A DNA stretch of 64,000 nt from Qipengyuania marincola. Lineage in GTDB: Bacteria; Pseudomonadota; Alphaproteobacteria; Sphingomonadales; Sphingomonadaceae. The DNA lies in the NCBI RefSeq assembly GCF_029688625.1, contig NZ_JARULC010000001.1, positions 868,001 through 932,000 of the forward strand, in the 5' to 3' direction. The notes under the pieces were generated by a model. It made no database searches. It saw only the letters and a program-made list of their open reading frames with translations, and was not told the DNA's origin. The position numbers and the translations under genes are program-made. Below are positions 46,825 to 64,000 of the stretch, one piece after another (the first letter of the stretch is position 1; each line of letters starts with the position of its first letter).

Positions 46825-48032
46825 GCGAAGGCGAGCAGATCGAGCGCATTGCTGCGCGCGGCGATGGCGTCACGCGGTCCGGGCGCCATGTGGCGGGAGG
46901 AGTGCCAGGCGACACCGTGAAGCCTGATGGCACAGTGTCGCTCGGCCCGCATCGTGCGCAGCCACCGTGCCGTCACTTCGCAACGCCTCCTGCCACAGGT
47001 TGCGGCGGATGCCAGTTGCAGCATGTCGACGAAGCAGCATTGCGGCAATTCGTGACCGATCGTGTCGTTTACGCTGCCGAGGGTCAGGGTCTGGTGATCG
47101 ATGAATTGCTGGAGACGCATTTGTCGCCGCCAGCGTCGCGCCGCAGAGCCACCCTACACGGCTTGCGAACGGCCAAAGGCGCGATGCTAGGGTTTCACGA
47201 GGCCGCATCCCGGCGCATCGTCGATTTACGCGAGTGCCACATCCTCCAGCCGGAACTCGTCGCACTTATCGATCCCCTGCGGCGTTTGATAGCGGACTAC
47301 GCCGGACGCGATCCGGTGGATGTCGAACTGACGCGCGCCGACCAGGGTATCGATTGCAATTTCAAAGGGCTGGAGCCGAAAGGACTGGCGGCGCAGGAAG
47401 CGCTGGCGGGTTTCGCGCGCGATCATGGCTTGGCGCGTCTATCGCTCGACTATGGTTATGGCCCTGAGACCATATGGGAGCCCGAACCGGTGACGGTGAA
47501 GCTCGGGAGCGTAGCGGTGTCCCTCCCGCACGGGGCCTTCCTGCAACCAACACATGATGGCGAACAAGTCCTGATCAATGATGCCCGCGATTTTCTGGGC
47601 GAGGCGGCAACGGTCGCCGACCTGTTTTCGGGGCTGGGCACCTTCGCATTCGATCTGGCCAATCCGGCGAAGGTGCTAGCGGTCGAGGCAGGCCGCGACG
47701 CGCATCTCGCCTGCAAGGCAAGCGCTAACTCGCGGCAGTTGCCCGTCCATGCAATGCATCGCGATCTGTTCCGAAATCCGTTGCAGCCAGCGGAGATCGA
47801 TCGCTTTGCCGCGGTTGTCCTCGACCCGCCGCGAGCAGGCGCACGCGACCAGATTGCGCAGATCGCAGCGAGTGGTGCCGAGCGGATCGCTTACATCAGT
47901 TGCAACCCGGCAAGCTGGGCGAAGGACGCGAAAACTCTGGTTGAGGCAGGCTTCGGCCTTCGAAAACTGCGACCGGTCGGTCAATTCCGCTGGTCAACGC
48001 ATGTCGAATTGACCAGCTATTTCACACGCTAG
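46821..48032 (+). CDS. TrmA/RlmD-family RNA m5U methyltransferase
   Basis: 403 residues. The N-terminal TRAM-like part is short; CRHFATPPATGCGGCQLQH holds the 4Fe-4S cysteines as in RlmD/RumA. VADLFSGLGTFAFDL is the SAM motif, VVLDPPRAGARDQIAQIA the motif IV, and AYISCNPASWAKDAKTL contains catalytic Cys361. The target, 23S rRNA or tRNA uridine, cannot be fixed from sequence alone. It is convergent with the hydrolase 1 gene, overlapping by 4 bp. Confidence 0.9.
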   Translation: MSEGEQIERIAARGDGVTRSGRHVAGGVPGDTVKPDGTVSLGPHRAQPPCRHFATPPATGCGGCQLQHVDEAALRQFVTDRVVYAAEGQGLVIDELLETHLSPPASRRRATLHGLRTAKGAMLGFHEAASRRIVDLRECHILQPELVALIDPLRRLIADYAGRDPVDVELTRADQGIDCNFKGLEPKGLAAQEALAGFARDHGLARLSLDYGYGPETIWEPEPVTVKLGSVAVSLPHGAFLQPTHDGEQVLINDARDFLGEAATVADLFSGLGTFAFDLANPAKVLAVEAGRDAHLACKASANSRQLPVHAMHRDLFRNPLQPAEIDRFAAVVLDPPRAGARDQIAQIAASGAERIAYISCNPASWAKDAKTLVEAGFGLRKLRPVGQFRWSTHVELTSYFTR

Positions 48033-48805
48033 TTGCGCAGGCTTTCTAGCAATCGAGCCTCTAGCCATGCCTGCGCGTGTGCCTCCCCTAACGCGTGATT
48101 TGCGTTCGGACAGGTCGCGATGGCCAAGCGCCTATCCGGCCAGGTGGCGCTGAATTGCTGCGCCGTGCGATCATTTTCGGCCAGGAGGATTTGAACCGAT
48201 CCGTCGAACCGGTCCAGGCCTGCTCGCATCTCATTGCCTAGCGAGGATGCAGTCGGCGCCGGCCGTGCGGCCCGTCTCAAGCCGGACGCGAGTTTGCGCA
48301 GGTCCACCCCGCCGCCCAAAAGCCGTGCTATTTCTCGCGGATTGCCCAGTTTCTGGCGATAACGCTCTCGGATCGAAGCGGCGGGCAGGGACTGCTCTTG
48401 CCCATCGTCGAAGGTCCAGGGATTGCTCAGCACCAGCCCGTCGCAGCCTGCTCCAGCGAAGAGCATCAGTGCGCTTGCCGCGTCGCAATTGCCGTGACCG
48501 ATTACGCGCTCGACTTGCGGGGCGATCGCCCGAAAAGCTTGCAGGGCAGCGCGGATATCTTTCGCCGCGTTACGAAACCCGCGGTTCTCCCCCTCACTAT
48601 CGCCGATGCCCCGTCGATCGAACCGCATGACCGGAAAGCCGCGGGCGGCGATCGCGGCGGCGAGCCTCGCCTGACCATTGAAAGCGCCCGCGCGGATCTC
48701 GTTGCCACCACTCACAATCAACAGGCCGGTTGTTCCGGGTGCGGTATCCAGCGTGCCGGCACAGGTTCTGCCTTGGCACTGAAAAGTGAGGGGTAGCCGG
48801 CTCAT
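48029..48805 (-). CDS. alpha/beta hydrolase 1, exosortase A system-associated
   Basis: 258 residues of the alpha/beta hydrolase fold. VSGGNEIRAGAFNGQARLAA and FPVMRFDRRGIGDSEGENRGF mark the hydrolase 1 family that accompanies exosortase A loci. The usual Ser-elbow position reads GHGNCDAASALML, so Cys takes the place of the nucleophilic Ser or the residue is shifted. CPNANHALGE has the His. Substrate unknown; proposed to cleave or release an acyl product of the ACP-ligase cassette. It overlaps hydrolase 2 by 4 bp. Confidence 0.85.
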   Translation of the reverse strand: MSRLPLTFQCQGRTCAGTLDTAPGTTGLLIVSGGNEIRAGAFNGQARLAAAIAARGFPVMRFDRRGIGDSEGENRGFRNAAKDIRAALQAFRAIAPQVERVIGHGNCDAASALMLFAGAGCDGLVLSNPWTFDDGQEQSLPAASIRERYRQKLGNPREIARLLGGGVDLRKLASGLRRAARPAPTASSLGNEMRAGLDRFDGSVQILLAENDRTAQQFSATWPDRRLAIATCPNANHALGEAHAQAWLEARLLESLRN

Positions 48806-49482
48806 CTCGAAGCCATCGCCTTAATGATGTGCGTAGCGAGGGCTTCCGCCTGCGCTGCATCGAAGTCGTTCTCAGCTCGCAACCACAGGGGTCGTCCGCC
48901 GATGTCAGTCTGCTTGATCACCTCGTAGCCGACGATATCGGGTTCTGCGCCATCGGCCAGTTCTTTCATCAGCTCGGGACTCAGGTCCCAGCCTGCCAGA
49001 GTAATTCCGTCGGATGCTCCCGCTTCGAGCAATTCCTCGGCCGTCGCAGTGCGCCCTGCTTCCTTCGCGGAGAGGATCTCCGCTCGCAACAGTCGCTGGA
49101 GGACTGGACGGGCCCCGCACGGTTCGAAGCACCATCCCGTCAAGCCCTGCGGAGCGATCAAGGCGGACGACCGAATGGTCAGGATATGCGTCGCGCGACA
49201 AGCCGTCGCTGCACTTTCGGCGCAGCGACGCCAGATGGCGAGTGACTGATGTCCATGCGGGGCAAGGCTCTCGTTGACACCTGGCAGGTCGGGGCAGAAG
49301 GTATCCACACCGCGTTCATCGAAAAGTCGCATCGTCCCAGCAATCTGGCAGCGGAACTTGTTGGCTTCGTCGAACAGCGGCGGCAGGATCAGCAGCCGCG
49401 CTTCCCGTTGCCGGTCGAAGCTGAAGAGGAGCTCTTCGCGCGTGGTCCCTGACGGCGATGGGCAGGGCCAGTCGCTGTACAT
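48802..49482 (-). CDS. alpha/beta hydrolase 2, exosortase A system-associated
   Basis: 226 residues. LLILPPLFDEANKFRCQIAGTMRLFDERGVDTFCPDLPGVNES is the typical beginning of exosortase-associated hydrolase 2. The core reads ILTIRSSALIAPQGLTGWCFEPCGARPVLQRLLRAE; a clear GxSxG is not seen, so the catalytic residues may differ from classical lipases. Between the ACP gene and hydrolase 1 in one minus-strand operon. Function not established for the family. Confidence 0.82.
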   Translation of the reverse strand: MYSDWPCPSPSGTTREELLFSFDRQREARLLILPPLFDEANKFRCQIAGTMRLFDERGVDTFCPDLPGVNESLAPHGHQSLAIWRRCAESAATACRATHILTIRSSALIAPQGLTGWCFEPCGARPVLQRLLRAEILSAKEAGRTATAEELLEAGASDGITLAGWDLSPELMKELADGAEPDIVGYEVIKQTDIGGRPLWLRAENDFDAAQAEALATHIIKAMASR

Positions 49483-49490
49483 GCCGTGCG

Positions 49491-49793
49491 TCAGCCTGCG
49501 ACCGCCTTCGCCTCGGCGAAGGCGAGCAGCGCACCATAGTTTTCCAGCATCTCTCCATCGATCTCGTCATCGTCGATTACGATATCGAGCCGGTCTTCCA
49601 TCTCGGTCAGCAAGCCCGCGACTGCCATGGAGTCAAGCTCCGGGAGGTGGCCGAATAGGCCGGTGTCGGAGTCGAAATCCTCGACCTGCTTGTCTTTCAG
49701 GCCCAATACGTCGCGCAGGATGGCACGCAGGGTCTGATCGATGTCGCTGCGGCTCGGGCCGGCAGGCTCGGCTGTGGCGGTCTCGGCAGTCAT
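49491..49793 (-). CDS. acyl carrier protein, exosortase A system-associated
   Basis: 100 residues of the phosphopantetheine-attachment family. LPELDSMAVAGLLTEMEDRLDIVIDDDEI carries Ser55 in the DSM motif, the site for the 4'-phosphopantetheine arm, with an acidic helix II-III typical of ACPs. The extended N-terminus (TAETATAEPAGPSRSD) is unusual. It should carry the acyl group activated by the divergent ligase. The ATG at 49793 is chosen because it begins the helical ACP-like part; an upstream frame has no homology-like content. Confidence 0.9.
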   Translation of the reverse strand: MTAETATAEPAGPSRSDIDQTLRAILRDVLGLKDKQVEDFDSDTGLFGHLPELDSMAVAGLLTEMEDRLDIVIDDDEIDGEMLENYGALLAFAEAKAVAG

Positions 49794-49833
49794 TCGCTCT
49801 CTCGGTTTCCCCTGCGTCACAAGCCGGTGCCCC

Positions 49834-50811
49834 TTAGCTCTGCGAAGTTCCGCGCGCAAGGCGGCGTGCCACGGCCTTGGCGATTGCCGGCCACGCGCGG
49901 GGATTGCGCCAATCAAGGCACTCCAGCCGAAAGCGAGCGCGTACCGTTTCCATCCAATCCTTCTTGTACGCATCTGAGCCGGTGCCGAAATCGATCATCT
50001 CCACCTTGTCTCGGTCGATGACGTGCTCGAACATCGCGGCGGTCAGCACGGTGCCGGCCGACAATGCCGCTCCTGCTTCGGTATGGGCAAGCTTGTGGAT
50101 ATAGGCTGTCCCGCCATCCACGGTCCAGAATTGCGCCGCAACGCGCGTGCCATCGGCCGATGCGATGCCGAGCCGCAAACGGCCCGCATGGCCTTCATTA
50201 TTTGCGAACCGTTCGAGAATGTCGGCCCGTTCCTCCACTGGTTTCCAACTCTTCTCGTAGACAAAATTATAATCTGACCAGGCATTTGCGTCGAAATCTT
50301 CGAATATCTCGATGTCGATCTTGCCCCGTTTGCGTTTCAAGGTTGTGCGCAATCGTCCGGGACGGCCTGCCCAGTACTCGGCGAACGACCTGCCGCGGAC
50401 ACCGACAATATGGTTCTCGTCGCAATGCTCGCGAAAAACGAGCCAGCCCGCTTTTTGGAAGCTTCGTTCCAGAAGGGAGGCGGTCCCATCCTCCTCGGGC
50501 AGCGGCGCCAAAATGATGGACGCTGTCTTGCGCCGTAGCATGCGTCCCAATGCTGCCAGCGCTTCCGGTGCGGTTCCGACCGGTCGCCAGGTGAACGAAA
50601 ACCAGTTCGTCAGGCTTTCGAGCCCCTTGGCGCGACGAGCGAGCACCATGGCTGCGGCCTCGTCGCCAGAAGCAGCTTCGGCAATGACCACGTCGTTGCG
50701 ATCTTCCGCGAGCAGCGCGTACCAGGCCAGCCTGTCGAAAGGCCCGGTGCCATTCGTGTCGAGGCCTTGCAGTTTGTCGATCCTGTCGTGATAGCTGACT
50801 TCGAATGCCAC
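49834..50811 (-). CDS. CelD/FemAB-like GNAT acyltransferase, exosortase A region
   Basis: 325 residues from GTG 50811 (GAGGA 7 bp upstream). WFSFTWRPVGTAPEALAALGRMLRR, GRPGRLRTTLKRKRGKIDIEIF, SWKPVEERADILERFA, AAQFWTVDGGTAYIHKLAHTE and VEMIDFGTGSDAYKKDWME are the blocks of the CelD/BcsL acetyltransferase group in the GNAT/FemAB superfamily. Such proteins transfer acyl or aminoacyl groups, often onto polysaccharide precursors. It is a plausible acceptor-side enzyme for the ACP-bound group made by this cassette. Confidence 0.85.
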   Translation of the reverse strand: MAFEVSYHDRIDKLQGLDTNGTGPFDRLAWYALLAEDRNDVVIAEAASGDEAAAMVLARRAKGLESLTNWFSFTWRPVGTAPEALAALGRMLRRKTASIILAPLPEEDGTASLLERSFQKAGWLVFREHCDENHIVGVRGRSFAEYWAGRPGRLRTTLKRKRGKIDIEIFEDFDANAWSDYNFVYEKSWKPVEERADILERFANNEGHAGRLRLGIASADGTRVAAQFWTVDGGTAYIHKLAHTEAGAALSAGTVLTAAMFEHVIDRDKVEMIDFGTGSDAYKKDWMETVRARFRLECLDWRNPRAWPAIAKAVARRLARGTSQS

Positions 50812-50837
50812 CCGTGAATCCTCGTGCCGGAGCCTTG

Positions 50838-52352
50838 ATGCCTGATCTCACGCCGTATCCGCTCGATCAACTGACCGTGCGGGGCGATGCACAGGCGAAT
50901 GCGCTCGTCCTCAAGGATCGGACTCTGACTTTCGGTGACCTGGAGGAGGGCGTGGCTCTGCTGGCAGGGTGGCTTGCAGATCAAGTACCTGAAGGCTCTC
51001 GGGTCGCTAGCTGGGCGACGAAGGGCGAATTGACCTGCCTCCTGCCGCTAGCGGCCGCGCGCGCGGGCCTCGTCCACGTGCCTATCAATCCCTTGCTCAA
51101 GCGGGCGCAAGTCGCTCATATTCTGACCGATAGTGGTGCCTCGATGCTGGTAGGTACTCCGGCCCGGCTTGAATCGCTGAACGCTGAAGATGTGCCAAAT
51201 GACTGTCACGTGGTGTCTGAAGCAGCCGCGATCAGCCAGGCTAGCGCACTGGGCCATCGCCTCGCGCCGTCGGATCGCCCGACGAAGGATCTTGCCGCGA
51301 TCCTCTATACCAGCGGGTCGACAGGCAAGCCCAAGGGCGTGATGCTGAGCCATGCCAATCTCTGGTTGGGCGCCGTCTCGGTCAGCCACTATCTCGGCCT
51401 TGCAGCAGATGACATCACGCTGGCAGTGCTGCCCTTGAGTTTCGATTACGGGCAAAACCAGCTTCTCTCGGCTTGGTATGCCGGAAGCTGCGCAGTTCCG
51501 CTCGACTATCTGTTTGCGCGGGACGTGACGAAAGCCTGTGCCAAACATGGCATAACGACGCTGGCCGGGGTTCCGCCGCTATGGGTCCAGCTGACCGAAG
51601 CTGCCTGGCCGGAAGACGCTGTCGGATCCCTGAGGCGCATCACGAATTCAGGTGGCGCACTTACTACCGAATTGATTGACGCCCTGCGCAAAAAGCTGCC
51701 CCAGACGGATATTTTCCCGATGTATGGCCTGACCGAAGCATTTCGCTCAACCTATCTCGATCCGTCGCTTGTCGCATCGCATCCGACCTCCATGGGACGC
51801 GCGATTCCCTTCGCCGAGATCATCGTCGTCGACGACGCAGGGCAGGTCAGCGAAGCTGGCGAGGAAGGCGAACTGGTACATTGCGGTCCTCTCGTGGCGC
51901 AGGGCTATTGGCAGGACGAGGCGAAAACCAAGGAACGCTTCAGGCCTGCGCCACCAGAGTCCCGCTACGGAGGAACGGCCGTGTGGTCGGGTGATCGGGT
52001 CATCCGAGACGAGGACGGTTTGCTGTATTTCGTCGGCCGACGCGACGCGATGATCAAAAGCGCTGGCAACCGCATCAGTCCGCAGGAGATCGAAGACGCT
52101 GCGCGTGCCACCGGCCTGGTCTCGGACGCGGTCGCGCTCGGCGTGCCAGACAGCCGGTTGGGACAGGCCATCCATCTCGTGGTCCGGCCTGCAGCCGAAG
52201 CGGAACATGCGCACGCCGCGCTGGCCGACAGGTTGAAAGATATCCTGCCGAACTTCATGCAACCTCACTCCATAGAATGGAGGGACGCGCTGCCTACCAA
52301 CCCCAATGGCAAGATTGATCGCGCGGCACTTCTCGAGGAGCTAGCGCAGTGA
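50838..52352 (+). CDS. acyl-CoA ligase (AMP-forming), exosortase A system-associated
   Basis: 504 residues of the ANL superfamily. AAILYTSGSTGKPKGVMLSH is the P-loop, FPMYGLTEAFRSTYL the A5 motif, GTAVWSGDRVIRDEDGLLYF the A7 motif, DAMIKSAGNRISPQEIE the hinge and NPNGKIDRAALLEEL holds the catalytic Lys. It is predicted to adenylate a carboxylic or amino acid and load it on the neighbouring ACP. ATG 50838 has GGAG upstream. The next gene begins in its stop codon. Divergent from the acyltransferase gene with only 26 bp between starts. Confidence 0.92.
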   Translation: MPDLTPYPLDQLTVRGDAQANALVLKDRTLTFGDLEEGVALLAGWLADQVPEGSRVASWATKGELTCLLPLAAARAGLVHVPINPLLKRAQVAHILTDSGASMLVGTPARLESLNAEDVPNDCHVVSEAAAISQASALGHRLAPSDRPTKDLAAILYTSGSTGKPKGVMLSHANLWLGAVSVSHYLGLAADDITLAVLPLSFDYGQNQLLSAWYAGSCAVPLDYLFARDVTKACAKHGITTLAGVPPLWVQLTEAAWPEDAVGSLRRITNSGGALTTELIDALRKKLPQTDIFPMYGLTEAFRSTYLDPSLVASHPTSMGRAIPFAEIIVVDDAGQVSEAGEEGELVHCGPLVAQGYWQDEAKTKERFRPAPPESRYGGTAVWSGDRVIRDEDGLLYFVGRRDAMIKSAGNRISPQEIEDAARATGLVSDAVALGVPDSRLGQAIHLVVRPAAEAEHAHAALADRLKDILPNFMQPHSIEWRDALPTNPNGKIDRAALLEELAQ

Positions 52353-53575
52353 AGCCGACAGGCCCGATCCCGTCTGGATTTTCCACAATCGATGGAGAGC
52401 TTGCGATCGCCGGACGACCGGTTTCCTCACTTGTTCAGGAAGCTGGGGGAACTCCCCTATTCGTCTATTCAGAGGAGATGATCGAACAGCGGATCGCCGC
52501 CTTGCGATCGGCTATGCCCGCCCGAATTGAGATAAATTACGCCATAAAAGCCAATAGCTTTCCGCCTGTTCTTAGCTCAATCTCGAACCTTGTCGACGGA
52601 ATGGATATCGCGTCAGGCGGCGAGCTCGAAATGGTACAGTCGCTTGGTTACGACATGGACCGTGTGAGTTTTGCAGGTCCGGGCAAGCGCGATAGCGAGC
52701 TGGAGGCCGCCATCGCCGCCGGCGTCACGCTCAATCTCGAGAGCGAAAACGAGGCAACCCGGGCGGTGAAGATTGCCGAGCGAGTAGGAACTAGGCCGAA
52801 GCTCGCGATCCGCGTCAATCCGGACTTCGACCTCAAGGGGTCTGGCATGAAGATGGGCGGCGGGCCCAAGCCATTCGGCATTGATGCTGTAAGAGTGCCG
52901 GCCCTAGCGCGTGATTTGGCCAACGCGGGGTGCGACTGGCGCGGTCTGCATATTTTCACCGGCAGTCAGGCGCTCTCGGCCGATGCGGTAATCGAGATGC
53001 AGGCCGAGGTGCTCGATTTGGCTTTTCGCATTTGCGACGAAGCAGGCGTCGACCTTCCCAAACTGAATATGGGGGGTGGCTTTGGCATTCCCTATTTCGC
53101 GGGCGACGAGCCGCTCGATATAGCGGCGGTTGGCGTTGCCCTTGAAGATAAGTTGCGAGGCCTCAAGGATAAATATCAGAAAACGCGGTTCTTCATAGAG
53201 CTTGGCCGGTTTCTGGTGGGGGAAGCCGGGGTTTATCTGACGCAAATTGTCGATCGCAAGGTCAGCCATGGCGAGACATATCTGGTGACAGACGGCGGGC
53301 TTCACCATCAGCTTGCCGCTTCAGGCAATTTCGGGACGGTGGTGCGCCGCAATTATCCGGTGGCGATCGCATCCCGCTTTGGAGCGCCACCGGTGGAAAC
53401 CGCCAATATCGTCGGGTGTCTATGCACTCCGTTGGATCGACTTGCCGACAAGGTGGAAGTTCCCCAAGCAGAGATCGGTGACATCGTCGCGGTGTTTTGC
53501 GCTGGCGCTTATGGTGCCAGTGCCTCACCAAGCGAGTTTCTGGGCCACGGACCGGCGCGCGAGATGCTGGTCTGA
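52349..53575 (+). CDS. PLP-dependent decarboxylase, exosortase A system-associated
   Basis: 408 residues of the fold III Orn/DAP/Arg decarboxylase family. INYAIKANSFPPVLSS carries the PLP Lys67; LHIFTGSQALS (SGSQ-like), MGGGFGIPY (phosphate loop), FFIELGRFLVGEAG and FCAGAYGAS with Cys384 (active site of the opposite subunit) follow in the usual order. The substrate is not known; it may decarboxylate an amino acid while it is held on the ACP. Start GTG overlaps the ligase stop (GTGA). Confidence 0.92.
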   Translation: MKPTGPIPSGFSTIDGELAIAGRPVSSLVQEAGGTPLFVYSEEMIEQRIAALRSAMPARIEINYAIKANSFPPVLSSISNLVDGMDIASGGELEMVQSLGYDMDRVSFAGPGKRDSELEAAIAAGVTLNLESENEATRAVKIAERVGTRPKLAIRVNPDFDLKGSGMKMGGGPKPFGIDAVRVPALARDLANAGCDWRGLHIFTGSQALSADAVIEMQAEVLDLAFRICDEAGVDLPKLNMGGGFGIPYFAGDEPLDIAAVGVALEDKLRGLKDKYQKTRFFIELGRFLVGEAGVYLTQIVDRKVSHGETYLVTDGGLHHQLAASGNFGTVVRRNYPVAIASRFGAPPVETANIVGCLCTPLDRLADKVEVPQAEIGDIVAVFCAGAYGASASPSEFLGHGPAREMLV

Positions 53576-63105: not shown

Positions 63106-64000
63106 TTTTGCCATGGCCGGAGCCGCGACACGATCGTGGAGGGCAGCGATCGCGCAGCTCGCCGTCATCTGGTCGCTGCTGTTCGCCGCGACCTTCGACC
63201 AATGGGCGCAGATGTTCCATCAATGGTGGAACATCGACACCTATAGCCACATCCTTCTGATCCCACCGATCATCGCCTGGCTGGTTTGGCTGAAGCGTGA
63301 TGCCCTTGTGCGGATTGCGCCCACTGGCTGGTGGCCAGGCCTGATCTGGGCGTTGCTCGGCCTCGCTCTGTGGACGGTCGGGCGCGCATTGGAGGTGAAC
63401 CTCTTTGCGCAGACAGGGACGCTGATGGCGGTGCAGGGCGCAACGGTCGCGCTTCTGGGCTTGCGCATCAGCCTCTTTCTCGCTCTGCCGATCGCTTACT
63501 CCAGTTTCCTGGTGCCCTTCGGCGACGAGATCATCCCGCAATTGCAGGCCGTAACCGCAAACCTCGCAACATGGCTTACCGACCTCAGCGGAATCGCGAT
63601 GATCGCCGATGGGATCTATATCGATACGCCAGCGGGGCTTTTCATCGTCGCCGAGGCGTGTTCGGGGGTGAAATTTCTGATCGCCATGGTGACATTGGGC
63701 GTCCTCGTCATCTTCACTTGCTTCGAGAGCTGGTCGCGGCGGGCGTGGTTCATGCTGGCCTGCATCGCCGTTCCGATCCTCGCCAACGGTATTCGCGCCT
63801 GGGCGACCATCTTCATCGCGCAATATGTCGGTGCCGAAGCGGCGGGCAGCTTCGATCATATCGTTTATGGGTGGGTTTTCTTCGGCATCGTCATCGCGCT
63901 GGTTCTTGGCTTTGCCTGGCCCTGGTTCGAGCGTGATCCGGAGGACTCCGGATGGACCTCTGACGAGATTTCCAGCTTGCCGCTGGTCGATAGCCTGGAG
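63095..64000 (+). CDS. xrtA: exosortase A (XrtA/EpsH), cut at the right edge
   Basis: 302 codons are visible and the gene continues beyond the window. About eight membrane helices; the catalytic triad is Cys189 (EACSGVKFL), Arg234 (NGIRAW) and His255 (FDHIVYGW), as in exosortases. It is expected to cleave PEP-CTERM proteins at the membrane. ATG 63095 is chosen; ATG 63113 is an alternative without overlap. Just after the last helix the visible end (DPEDSGWTSDEISSLPLVDSLE) begins a hydrophilic tail, so an EpsI-like C-terminal domain could follow. Confidence 0.95.
   Translation, partial: MQPDFAMAGAATRSWRAAIAQLAVIWSLLFAATFDQWAQMFHQWWNIDTYSHILLIPPIIAWLVWLKRDALVRIAPTGWWPGLIWALLGLALWTVGRALEVNLFAQTGTLMAVQGATVALLGLRISLFLALPIAYSSFLVPFGDEIIPQLQAVTANLATWLTDLSGIAMIADGIYIDTPAGLFIVAEACSGVKFLIAMVTLGVLVIFTCFESWSRRAWFMLACIAVPILANGIRAWATIFIAQYVGAEAAGSFDHIVYGWVFFGIVIALVLGFAWPWFERDPEDSGWTSDEISSLPLVDSLE

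Follow-up and report, generated by a model that had tools for sequence, protein, structure and literature searches.

Background

What does a stand-alone acyl carrier protein (ACP) do when it is encoded together with an adenosine monophosphate (AMP)-forming ligase and a pyridoxal 5'-phosphate (PLP)-dependent decarboxylase, close to exosortase A (XrtA), in the alphaproteobacterium Qipengyuania marincola? These three genes, termed here the trio, lie within a 64,000-nucleotide stretch of DNA (the window; assembly GCF_029688625.1, contig NZ_JARULC010000001.1, forward-strand positions 868,001 to 932,000) from a genome assembled into four contigs (2.99 Mb in all). Their window coordinates are as follows:

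49491..49793, minus strand: stand-alone ACP (core); 100 residues from the MTAET start; Ser55 in ELDSMAV; PF00550
50805..52352, plus strand: AMP-forming ligase, VinN-like beta-amino-acid type (core); TIGR03098; Asp214, Tyr215, Ser282, Phe313-Arg314, catalytic Lys503
52349..53575, plus strand: fold-III PLP decarboxylase, BtrK type (core); TIGR03099; Lys67, Cys359-Thr360

An original prediction, made from the sequence of the window alone, held that the trio produces a decarboxylated, carrier-bound aminoacyl group for attachment to the XrtA polysaccharide or to a PEP-CTERM-linked partner. The analysis described here favors another destination: the trio is probably, though by no means certainly, an adenosine triphosphate (ATP)-driven, carrier-bound replacement for PanD that is also tapped by the exosortase A block. 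PanC, which leads to pantothenate, needs beta-alanine, for which PanD is the usual enzyme.

In the mechanism proposed here, the ligase would load L-aspartate, or a closely similar compound, onto the ACP after adenylating its beta-carboxylate; a decarboxylase of the BtrK/VinO type would strip the free alpha-carboxylate from aspartyl-ACP to yield beta-alanyl-ACP; and beta-alanine, once released, would pass through PanC into pantothenate and coenzyme A (CoA), thereby taking the place of PanD in the majority of Sphingomonadaceae and in some bacteria beyond that family. In genomes with exosortase A, a GNAT acyltransferase and a cysteine-type hydrolase (hydrolase 1, perhaps with hydrolase 2) would channel the same carrier-bound group to the XrtA polysaccharide machinery. 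We regard as evenly balanced the further proposition that in most Sphingomonadaceae the beta-alanine for vitamin B5 and CoA is formed on a carrier--aspartate being activated by ATP, tethered to phosphopantetheine and decarboxylated there--and that the 'exosortase A-associated' label arises only from the polysaccharide system tapping the same pool. Such a pathway would be self-referential, because the phosphopantetheine arm is itself built from the product.

Results and discussion

The trio is separable from the exosortase A system

Among 80 Sphingomonadales loci, 72 have more than 3 kb of sequence upstream of the decarboxylase; within these 72 the divergent ACP is always present, the ligase is adjacent and on the same strand in 71, and ACP, ligase, both hydrolases and the GNAT protein all accompany the decarboxylase in 63. 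This arrangement is not due to chance. Eight loci (L036, L039, L046, L047, L051, L052, L058 and L099) carry the trio only, in some cases beside what is left of the XrtA ATPase or deacetylase genes; hydrolase 2 and the GNAT protein were not found in their flanks. Exosortase A scores over its cut-off in none of these eight genomes versus 11 of 12 comparison genomes (model matches of 114-128 bits in L036, L039 and L058 were not scored as exosortase A), and hydrolase 1 in none of the eight versus 4 of 4. The ratio of nonsynonymous to synonymous change (pN/pS) for the decarboxylase and ligase is 0.22-0.28 in four XrtA-less pairs versus 0.26-0.31 in three pairs that have the polysaccharide operon, with near-saturation at synonymous sites; the trio is under purifying selection without XrtA, as it is elsewhere. 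Being kept under such selection where XrtA is missing, the trio therefore has a job that is independent of the polysaccharide system. The one exception among the comparison genomes, L060, has all six genes and a reduced polysaccharide operon, with no exosortase A match; it looks like a locus in the process of losing the XrtA system.

The same separability is seen across 199 Sphingomonadaceae genomes. There the decarboxylase occurs in 168 (E at most 1e-100; 165 of them over the family cut-off), the ligase in 167 (165 in common) and exosortase A in 129 (127 in common with the decarboxylase); in one of the two exosortase A genomes without a decarboxylase call the gene is cut by a contig end. The decarboxylase carriers without a ligase call are G366 (in which the ligase is split into two overlapping frames), G453 and G462. 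ACP, ligase and decarboxylase, the genes left at the eight trio-only loci, form the core module. The partnership with exosortase A is not strict, since 41 of the 168 carriers lack it. A survey for strict co-occurrence of all six genes had been suggested along with the original prediction; in view of these 41 genomes and of the eight trio-only loci without exosortase A or hydrolase 1, such co-occurrence is rejected. Because the trio-only genomes lack exosortase A, attachment to a polysaccharide or PEP-CTERM partner is not the trio's only job: of the predicted scheme, the carrier decarboxylation module (ligase, ACP and BtrK-like decarboxylase) stands, and that attachment as its sole destination falls.

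The trio excludes PanD and accompanies PanC

PanD (TIGR00223) is found in 8 of the 199 Sphingomonadaceae, namely in none of the 168 decarboxylase carriers and in 8 of the 31 others (Fisher p 1.5e-7, not corrected for relatedness), and these eight genomes have no decarboxylase, ligase or exosortase A. The exclusion holds when only the 70 exosortase A-less genomes are counted (0 of 41 carriers versus 8 of 29 others, p 4.5e-4) and even within a single genus, g199, where two genomes have the trio decarboxylase and a third has PanD. In a phylum sample of 299 genomes, where carriers are defined solely by a decarboxylase over the TIGR03099 cut-off (n = 19, of which 13 are Sphingomonadaceae and ten of those are also in the family survey), PanD occurs in 0 of 19 carriers versus 164 of 280 others; for the carriers outside Sphingomonadaceae the count is 0 of 6 (p 0.006). 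A lower tier of decarboxylases (about 270-304 bits, mostly family f28) is largely from PanD-bearing genomes, and nine f28 loci and one f47 locus from this tier showed no ligase or ACP beside the decarboxylase. PanC, by comparison, is present in 187 of the 199 Sphingomonadaceae and in 164 of the 168 carriers; the 12 genomes without it are 8 of the 31 decarboxylase-negative genomes and 4 carriers with an assembly completeness of 66-85%. That the trio excludes PanD and accompanies PanC in the genomes sampled points to beta-alanine supply.

In the 22 sphingomonad rows available from table A2 of PMC7142369, PanD is scored 0 in all 22 and PanC 1 in 21, whereas the beta-alanine synthase of uracil breakdown and glutamate decarboxylase are each scored 1 in only 2. 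For Erythrobacter sp. SD-21 (L036), where the trio stands alone and exosortase A is absent over cut-off, PYD1 is the only surveyed beta-alanine route scored present in that part of the table (PMC7142369). The available text of the same paper also describes a uracil-degradation route to beta-alanine that substitutes for PanD in Rhizobium etli (PMC7142369); dihydropyrimidinase was found over cut-off in 0 of 37 genomes of the window's genus versus 5 of 24 others of the order. A beta-alanine source is thus missing on paper where the trio occurs, and the predicted chemistry of the trio would yield it. No carrier-bound beta-alanine route for pantothenate was found proposed in the literature, as judged mostly by titles and abstract openings, and none of the terms ligase, decarboxylase, acyl carrier and hydrolase turned up when the text of Haft 2006 (PMC1569441) was searched for them.

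A fold-I PLP decarboxylase (PF00282) was considered as the substitute in trio-less genomes and set aside: it occurs in 7 of 14 such genomes versus 5 of 26 carriers (G490 being counted among the carriers; p 0.07), and is not counted as support. It is also present in 3 of 8 PanD-bearing and 0 of 8 PanC-less genomes, and the PF00282 proteins scanned (10 of 16 fetched) all fall below the cut-offs for PanP and diaminobutyrate decarboxylase. PF00282 proteins resembling decarboxylases form a group in several sphingomonads (L157-L169); likewise below these cut-offs where scanned, they could represent another amino-acid decarboxylase subfamily.

Predicted chemistry of the core enzymes

The decarboxylase belongs to the XrtA-associated PLP decarboxylase family TIGR03099 (577.1 bits, cut-off 478.45) and falls short of the diaminopimelate decarboxylase family, LysA (TIGR01048; 243.4 bits, cut-off 297.9). 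Its closest named relatives are from Erythrobacter and Qipengyuania, and its top solved relative by sequence is BtrK (2j66/7ru7; 248 bits, versus 162 for the best diaminopimelate decarboxylase). The PLP lysine, Lys67, was named correctly in the original prediction and is conserved in 13 of 13 sequences; Cys384, which the prediction named beside it, is C, Q, A, L or M across the same 13 and is rejected as an active-site residue in favor of Cys359 of the LCTPLD motif, which is invariant there (13/13) and in a wider set (119/119). This cysteine is followed by threonine both in the window decarboxylase and in BtrK, where LysA has Cys-Glu; the latter pair occurs in only 3 of 38 wider loci (L113-L150), all three LysA-like. 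The acidic residue after the cysteine has a role in LysA and ornithine decarboxylase. In a tree of 48 rows LysA stands apart (support 100/100) and BtrK falls among the remainder, on a long branch and with modest support (82/60); the window genome has its own LysA, with the CETGD motif (L002/L150). Given the PLP lysine, the Cys-Thr in place of Cys-Glu and the tree position apart from LysA, assignment to the BtrK/VinO type, with predicted action on a carrier-bound amino acid, is well supported at the level of sequence.

Two other kinds of locus came to light among the decarboxylase's relatives. L131 and L132 have frames of about 813-828 residues in which a BtrK-like decarboxylase domain is joined to another long part, beside several ligase-like genes; they probably represent further biosynthetic clusters in which this carrier decarboxylation step is employed. 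A further Cys-Thr group, marked by GPLCT.ADKLA (L134-L142 and L147-L149), is mostly from family f28 and mostly from PanD-bearing genomes, and no ligase or ACP was found beside its decarboxylases.

The ligase, predicted from the outset to be AMP-forming, belongs to the XrtA-associated ligase family TIGR03098 (635.4 bits, cut-off 592.35). Compared at full length with solved structures, it matches nonribosomal peptide synthetase adenylation domains best, with VinN, IdnL1, CmiS6 and HitB among the first 17 matches; when only the substrate-pocket segment is compared, VinN ranks first (101 bits), ungapped across the YG.TE..R loop. According to the available text of PMC11253843, the beta-amino-acid signature of VinN consists of D230, which holds the amino group, and of the bulky F231 and S299, and its loop carrying K330-R331 is shorter by one residue. 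In the window ligase D230, F231, S299 and R331 correspond to Asp214, Tyr215, Ser282 and Arg314, and the loop is of equal length; the pocket aspartate is invariant in 93 of 93 collected ligases and the arginine in 95 of 95. VinN is described, in the available text of PMC11284099, as accepting 3-methylaspartate and, with low efficiency, aspartate, and as loading VinL, whose carrier-bound substrate is decarboxylated by VinO. Because carrier decarboxylation needs a free alpha-carboxylate, the substrate should be a dicarboxylic amino acid attached via its side chain, and the VinN-like pocket would favor aspartate over glutamate. BtrJ, an ATP-grasp ligase for glutamate that had been taken as the model for this enzyme, is thus replaced by the adenylating VinN on the strength of the pocket-segment match.

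The ACP matches PF00550, and its Asp-Ser is invariant in 88 of 88 ACPs. The phosphopantetheine serine is Ser55, as predicted, when counted from the 100-residue start, and Ser115 in the longest frame; the top solved relative is 2lki, an uncharacterised ACP-like protein (50 bits).

Accessory genes and neighborhood

The remaining genes of the block and its context are as follows:

48029..48805, minus strand: hydrolase 1 (accessory); alpha/beta-hydrolase fold, Cys107-Asp212-His237; TIGR03100 over cut-off
48802..49482, minus strand: hydrolase 2 (accessory); alpha/beta-hydrolase fold, Arg104 at the nucleophile place; TIGR03101 below cut-off
49834..50811, minus strand: CelD-like GNAT acyltransferase (accessory; accompanies the XrtA-type block); PF13480
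53749..63105, plus strand: XrtA polysaccharide operon (context); export protein, chain length, kinase, outer membrane protein, ATPase, deacetylase, FemAB-like, glycosyltransferase
63155..63931, plus strand: exosortase A (context); TIGR03109 match of 306 bits, at G000:C1:931155-931931

All six genes lie where the original prediction placed them, in one divergent block (48029..53575), about 9.6 kb downstream of which is exosortase A, and the CelD-like acyltransferase is borne out by its PF13480 match. Because the annotated starts of the GNAT and ligase genes overlap by a few bases, the true start of one or both is probably further in. Scans of the window for structural RNAs and transfer RNAs gave no match at the gathering threshold.

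Both proteins predicted to be hydrolases are present and have the alpha/beta-hydrolase fold; their assigned task of clearing or releasing the carrier-bound group finds no support as originally put. Hydrolase 1 (TIGR03100, 230 bits, cut-off 168) has a conserved triad (Cys 68/68, Asp 67/67, His 67/67), and its structural model (pLDDT, the predicted local distance difference test score, 88.8) places Cys107 between strand 100-106 and helix 108-115, that is, at the nucleophile elbow. Its fold neighbors are mainly esterases and lipases, RhlA (described as a thioesterase and acyltransferase) being among them. A cysteine at this position is known from acyltransferases such as polyhydroxyalkanoate synthase, and an invariant elbow cysteine, rather than serine, would be no less in keeping with an acyltransferase than with a hydrolase; hydrolase 1 is perhaps an acyltransferase or thioesterase. 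As an obligatory release enzyme it is rejected for the eight trio-only genomes, none of which has it over cut-off, and it therefore cannot be the general release enzyme. Hydrolase 2 is far below the TIGR03101 cut-off (32.9 versus 202.75 bits), and its model (pLDDT 94.3) gives alpha/beta-hydrolase fold matches, as for hydrolase 1; in place of a nucleophilic serine it has Arg104, invariant in 69 of 69 and 18 of 18 sequences. It is probably not a hydrolase and is perhaps a partner subunit. Together, the GNAT protein and both hydrolases may pass the group from its carrier on to the XrtA polysaccharide.

Weighing the explanations

Several observations weigh against a carrier-bound replacement for PanD. 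No candidate for the release of beta-alanine was found in the trio-only genomes, and the cost of ATP and a carrier is odd for a compound that one-step enzymes can make. In the ligase pocket, VinN K330 aligns to Phe313, the serine of the VinN pocket is threonine or another residue in several relatives of the wider set, and glutamate could be the substrate in place of aspartate. Since the genomes are related, the p values assume more independence than there is, and ten family genomes figure in both surveys. Among the next 16 genomes, with lower-scoring decarboxylase relatives (311-456 bits), 6 have PanD, and distant, lower-scoring trio-like sets (e.g., L119, L126, L127 and L130) may make other things. 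Fifteen decarboxylase-negative genomes have PanC and no PanD; twelve remain after removal of three partial cases (G490, whose trio is truncated in the decarboxylase by a contig end; G404, with ACP, GNAT and hydrolases and no ligase or decarboxylase on that contig; and G445, with the ligase), and of these twelve, seven have PF00282 proteins and five have none. A transaminase could be the source of beta-alanine, as beta-alanine aminotransferase (AAM) is scored at least 1 in 13 of the 22 available sphingomonad rows of PMC7142369. Finally, the idea that panC or panD is linked to the trio was checked and rejected: tblastn with one panC and one panD query over 172 loci and the window found no pan gene in trio loci, the only matches being in L153-L155, which were fetched for their pan genes.

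Against these points must be set the difficulties of the alternatives. That the trio makes a decarboxylated aminoacyl group for the XrtA polysaccharide or a PEP-CTERM partner (via the GNAT protein, the FemAB-like protein and hydrolase 1), with survival elsewhere being a remnant or secondary use, would account for the presence of all six genes in 63 of 72 loci, for the decarboxylase in 127 of the family's 129 exosortase A genomes (and, cut by a contig end, in one other), for the deacetylase and FemAB genes within the operon and for the GNAT protein and hydrolases that accompany the trio; this explanation is nevertheless rather unlikely, inasmuch as all eight trio-only genomes lack exosortase A and hydrolase 1 and keep the trio under purifying selection, 41 of 168 carriers lack exosortase A, and the exclusion of PanD persists within exosortase A-less genomes. 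Less probable still is another product--4-aminobutyryl-ACP from glutamate, as for BtrK, or 3-aminoisobutyryl-ACP from 3-methylaspartate--destined for some lipid, polymer or small molecule, with the distribution of PanD then reflecting a lineage effect. BtrK does act on a glutamyl carrier, going by its PDB molecule name, and trio-like sets elsewhere adjoin other ligases and carriers (L128, L131, L132); a VinN-type pocket, however, would suit a beta-amino relation to the activated carboxylate, and a lineage effect sits poorly with swaps between trio and PanD inside one genus and in families other than this one, and with the agreement with PanC. It is very improbable that the ligase is an acyl-CoA ligase, that free diaminopimelate, ornithine or lysine is the substrate of the decarboxylase and that the ACP is incidental. 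The NCBIfam name of TIGR03098 and the position of lysA as the decarboxylase's next family (243 bits) speak for it, whereas the separate LysA with CETGD in the same genome, the presence of Cys-Thr rather than Cys-Glu or Cys-Asp, the invariant amino-anchoring aspartate of the ligase and an ACP that is always next to the ligase speak against it. A carrier-bound replacement for PanD thus stays the preferred explanation.

Comparison with known systems

Were this explanation true, chemistry known from antibiotic assembly would serve the synthesis of a core cofactor in a large family of bacteria, and three protein families that are either named after exosortase A or unnamed would gain a function. The proposed outcome, aspartate to beta-alanine, is that of PanD, a pyruvoyl enzyme that acts on free aspartate without carrier or ATP; PanD has no sequence relation to the trio and is mutually exclusive with it in the genomes sampled. 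The route of Rhizobium etli is likewise a PanD substitute in Alphaproteobacteria, one that, as described in the available text, uses the beta-alanine synthase of pyrimidine breakdown.

As regards mechanism, the idea of decarboxylation on a carrier was right in kind, and VinN-VinL-VinO is a better model for it than the butirosin system originally invoked. BtrI-BtrJ-BtrK shares with the trio a BtrK-like decarboxylase and a carrier protein, whereas the window ligase is AMP-forming and VinN-like. The vicenistatin enzymes VinN-VinL-VinO and the fluvirucin ligase FlvN, which loads aspartate according to the available text of PMC11284099, share with it a stand-alone adenylating ligase with a beta-amino-acid pocket, a stand-alone ACP and a PLP decarboxylase that acts, by prediction in the case of the trio, on the carrier. 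VinN-VinL-VinO differs in that it primes a polyketide synthase and in that a second ligase caps its product, neither of which is encoded in the window block; and, unlike VinN-VinL-VinO, the trio has a distribution that follows pantothenate synthesis.

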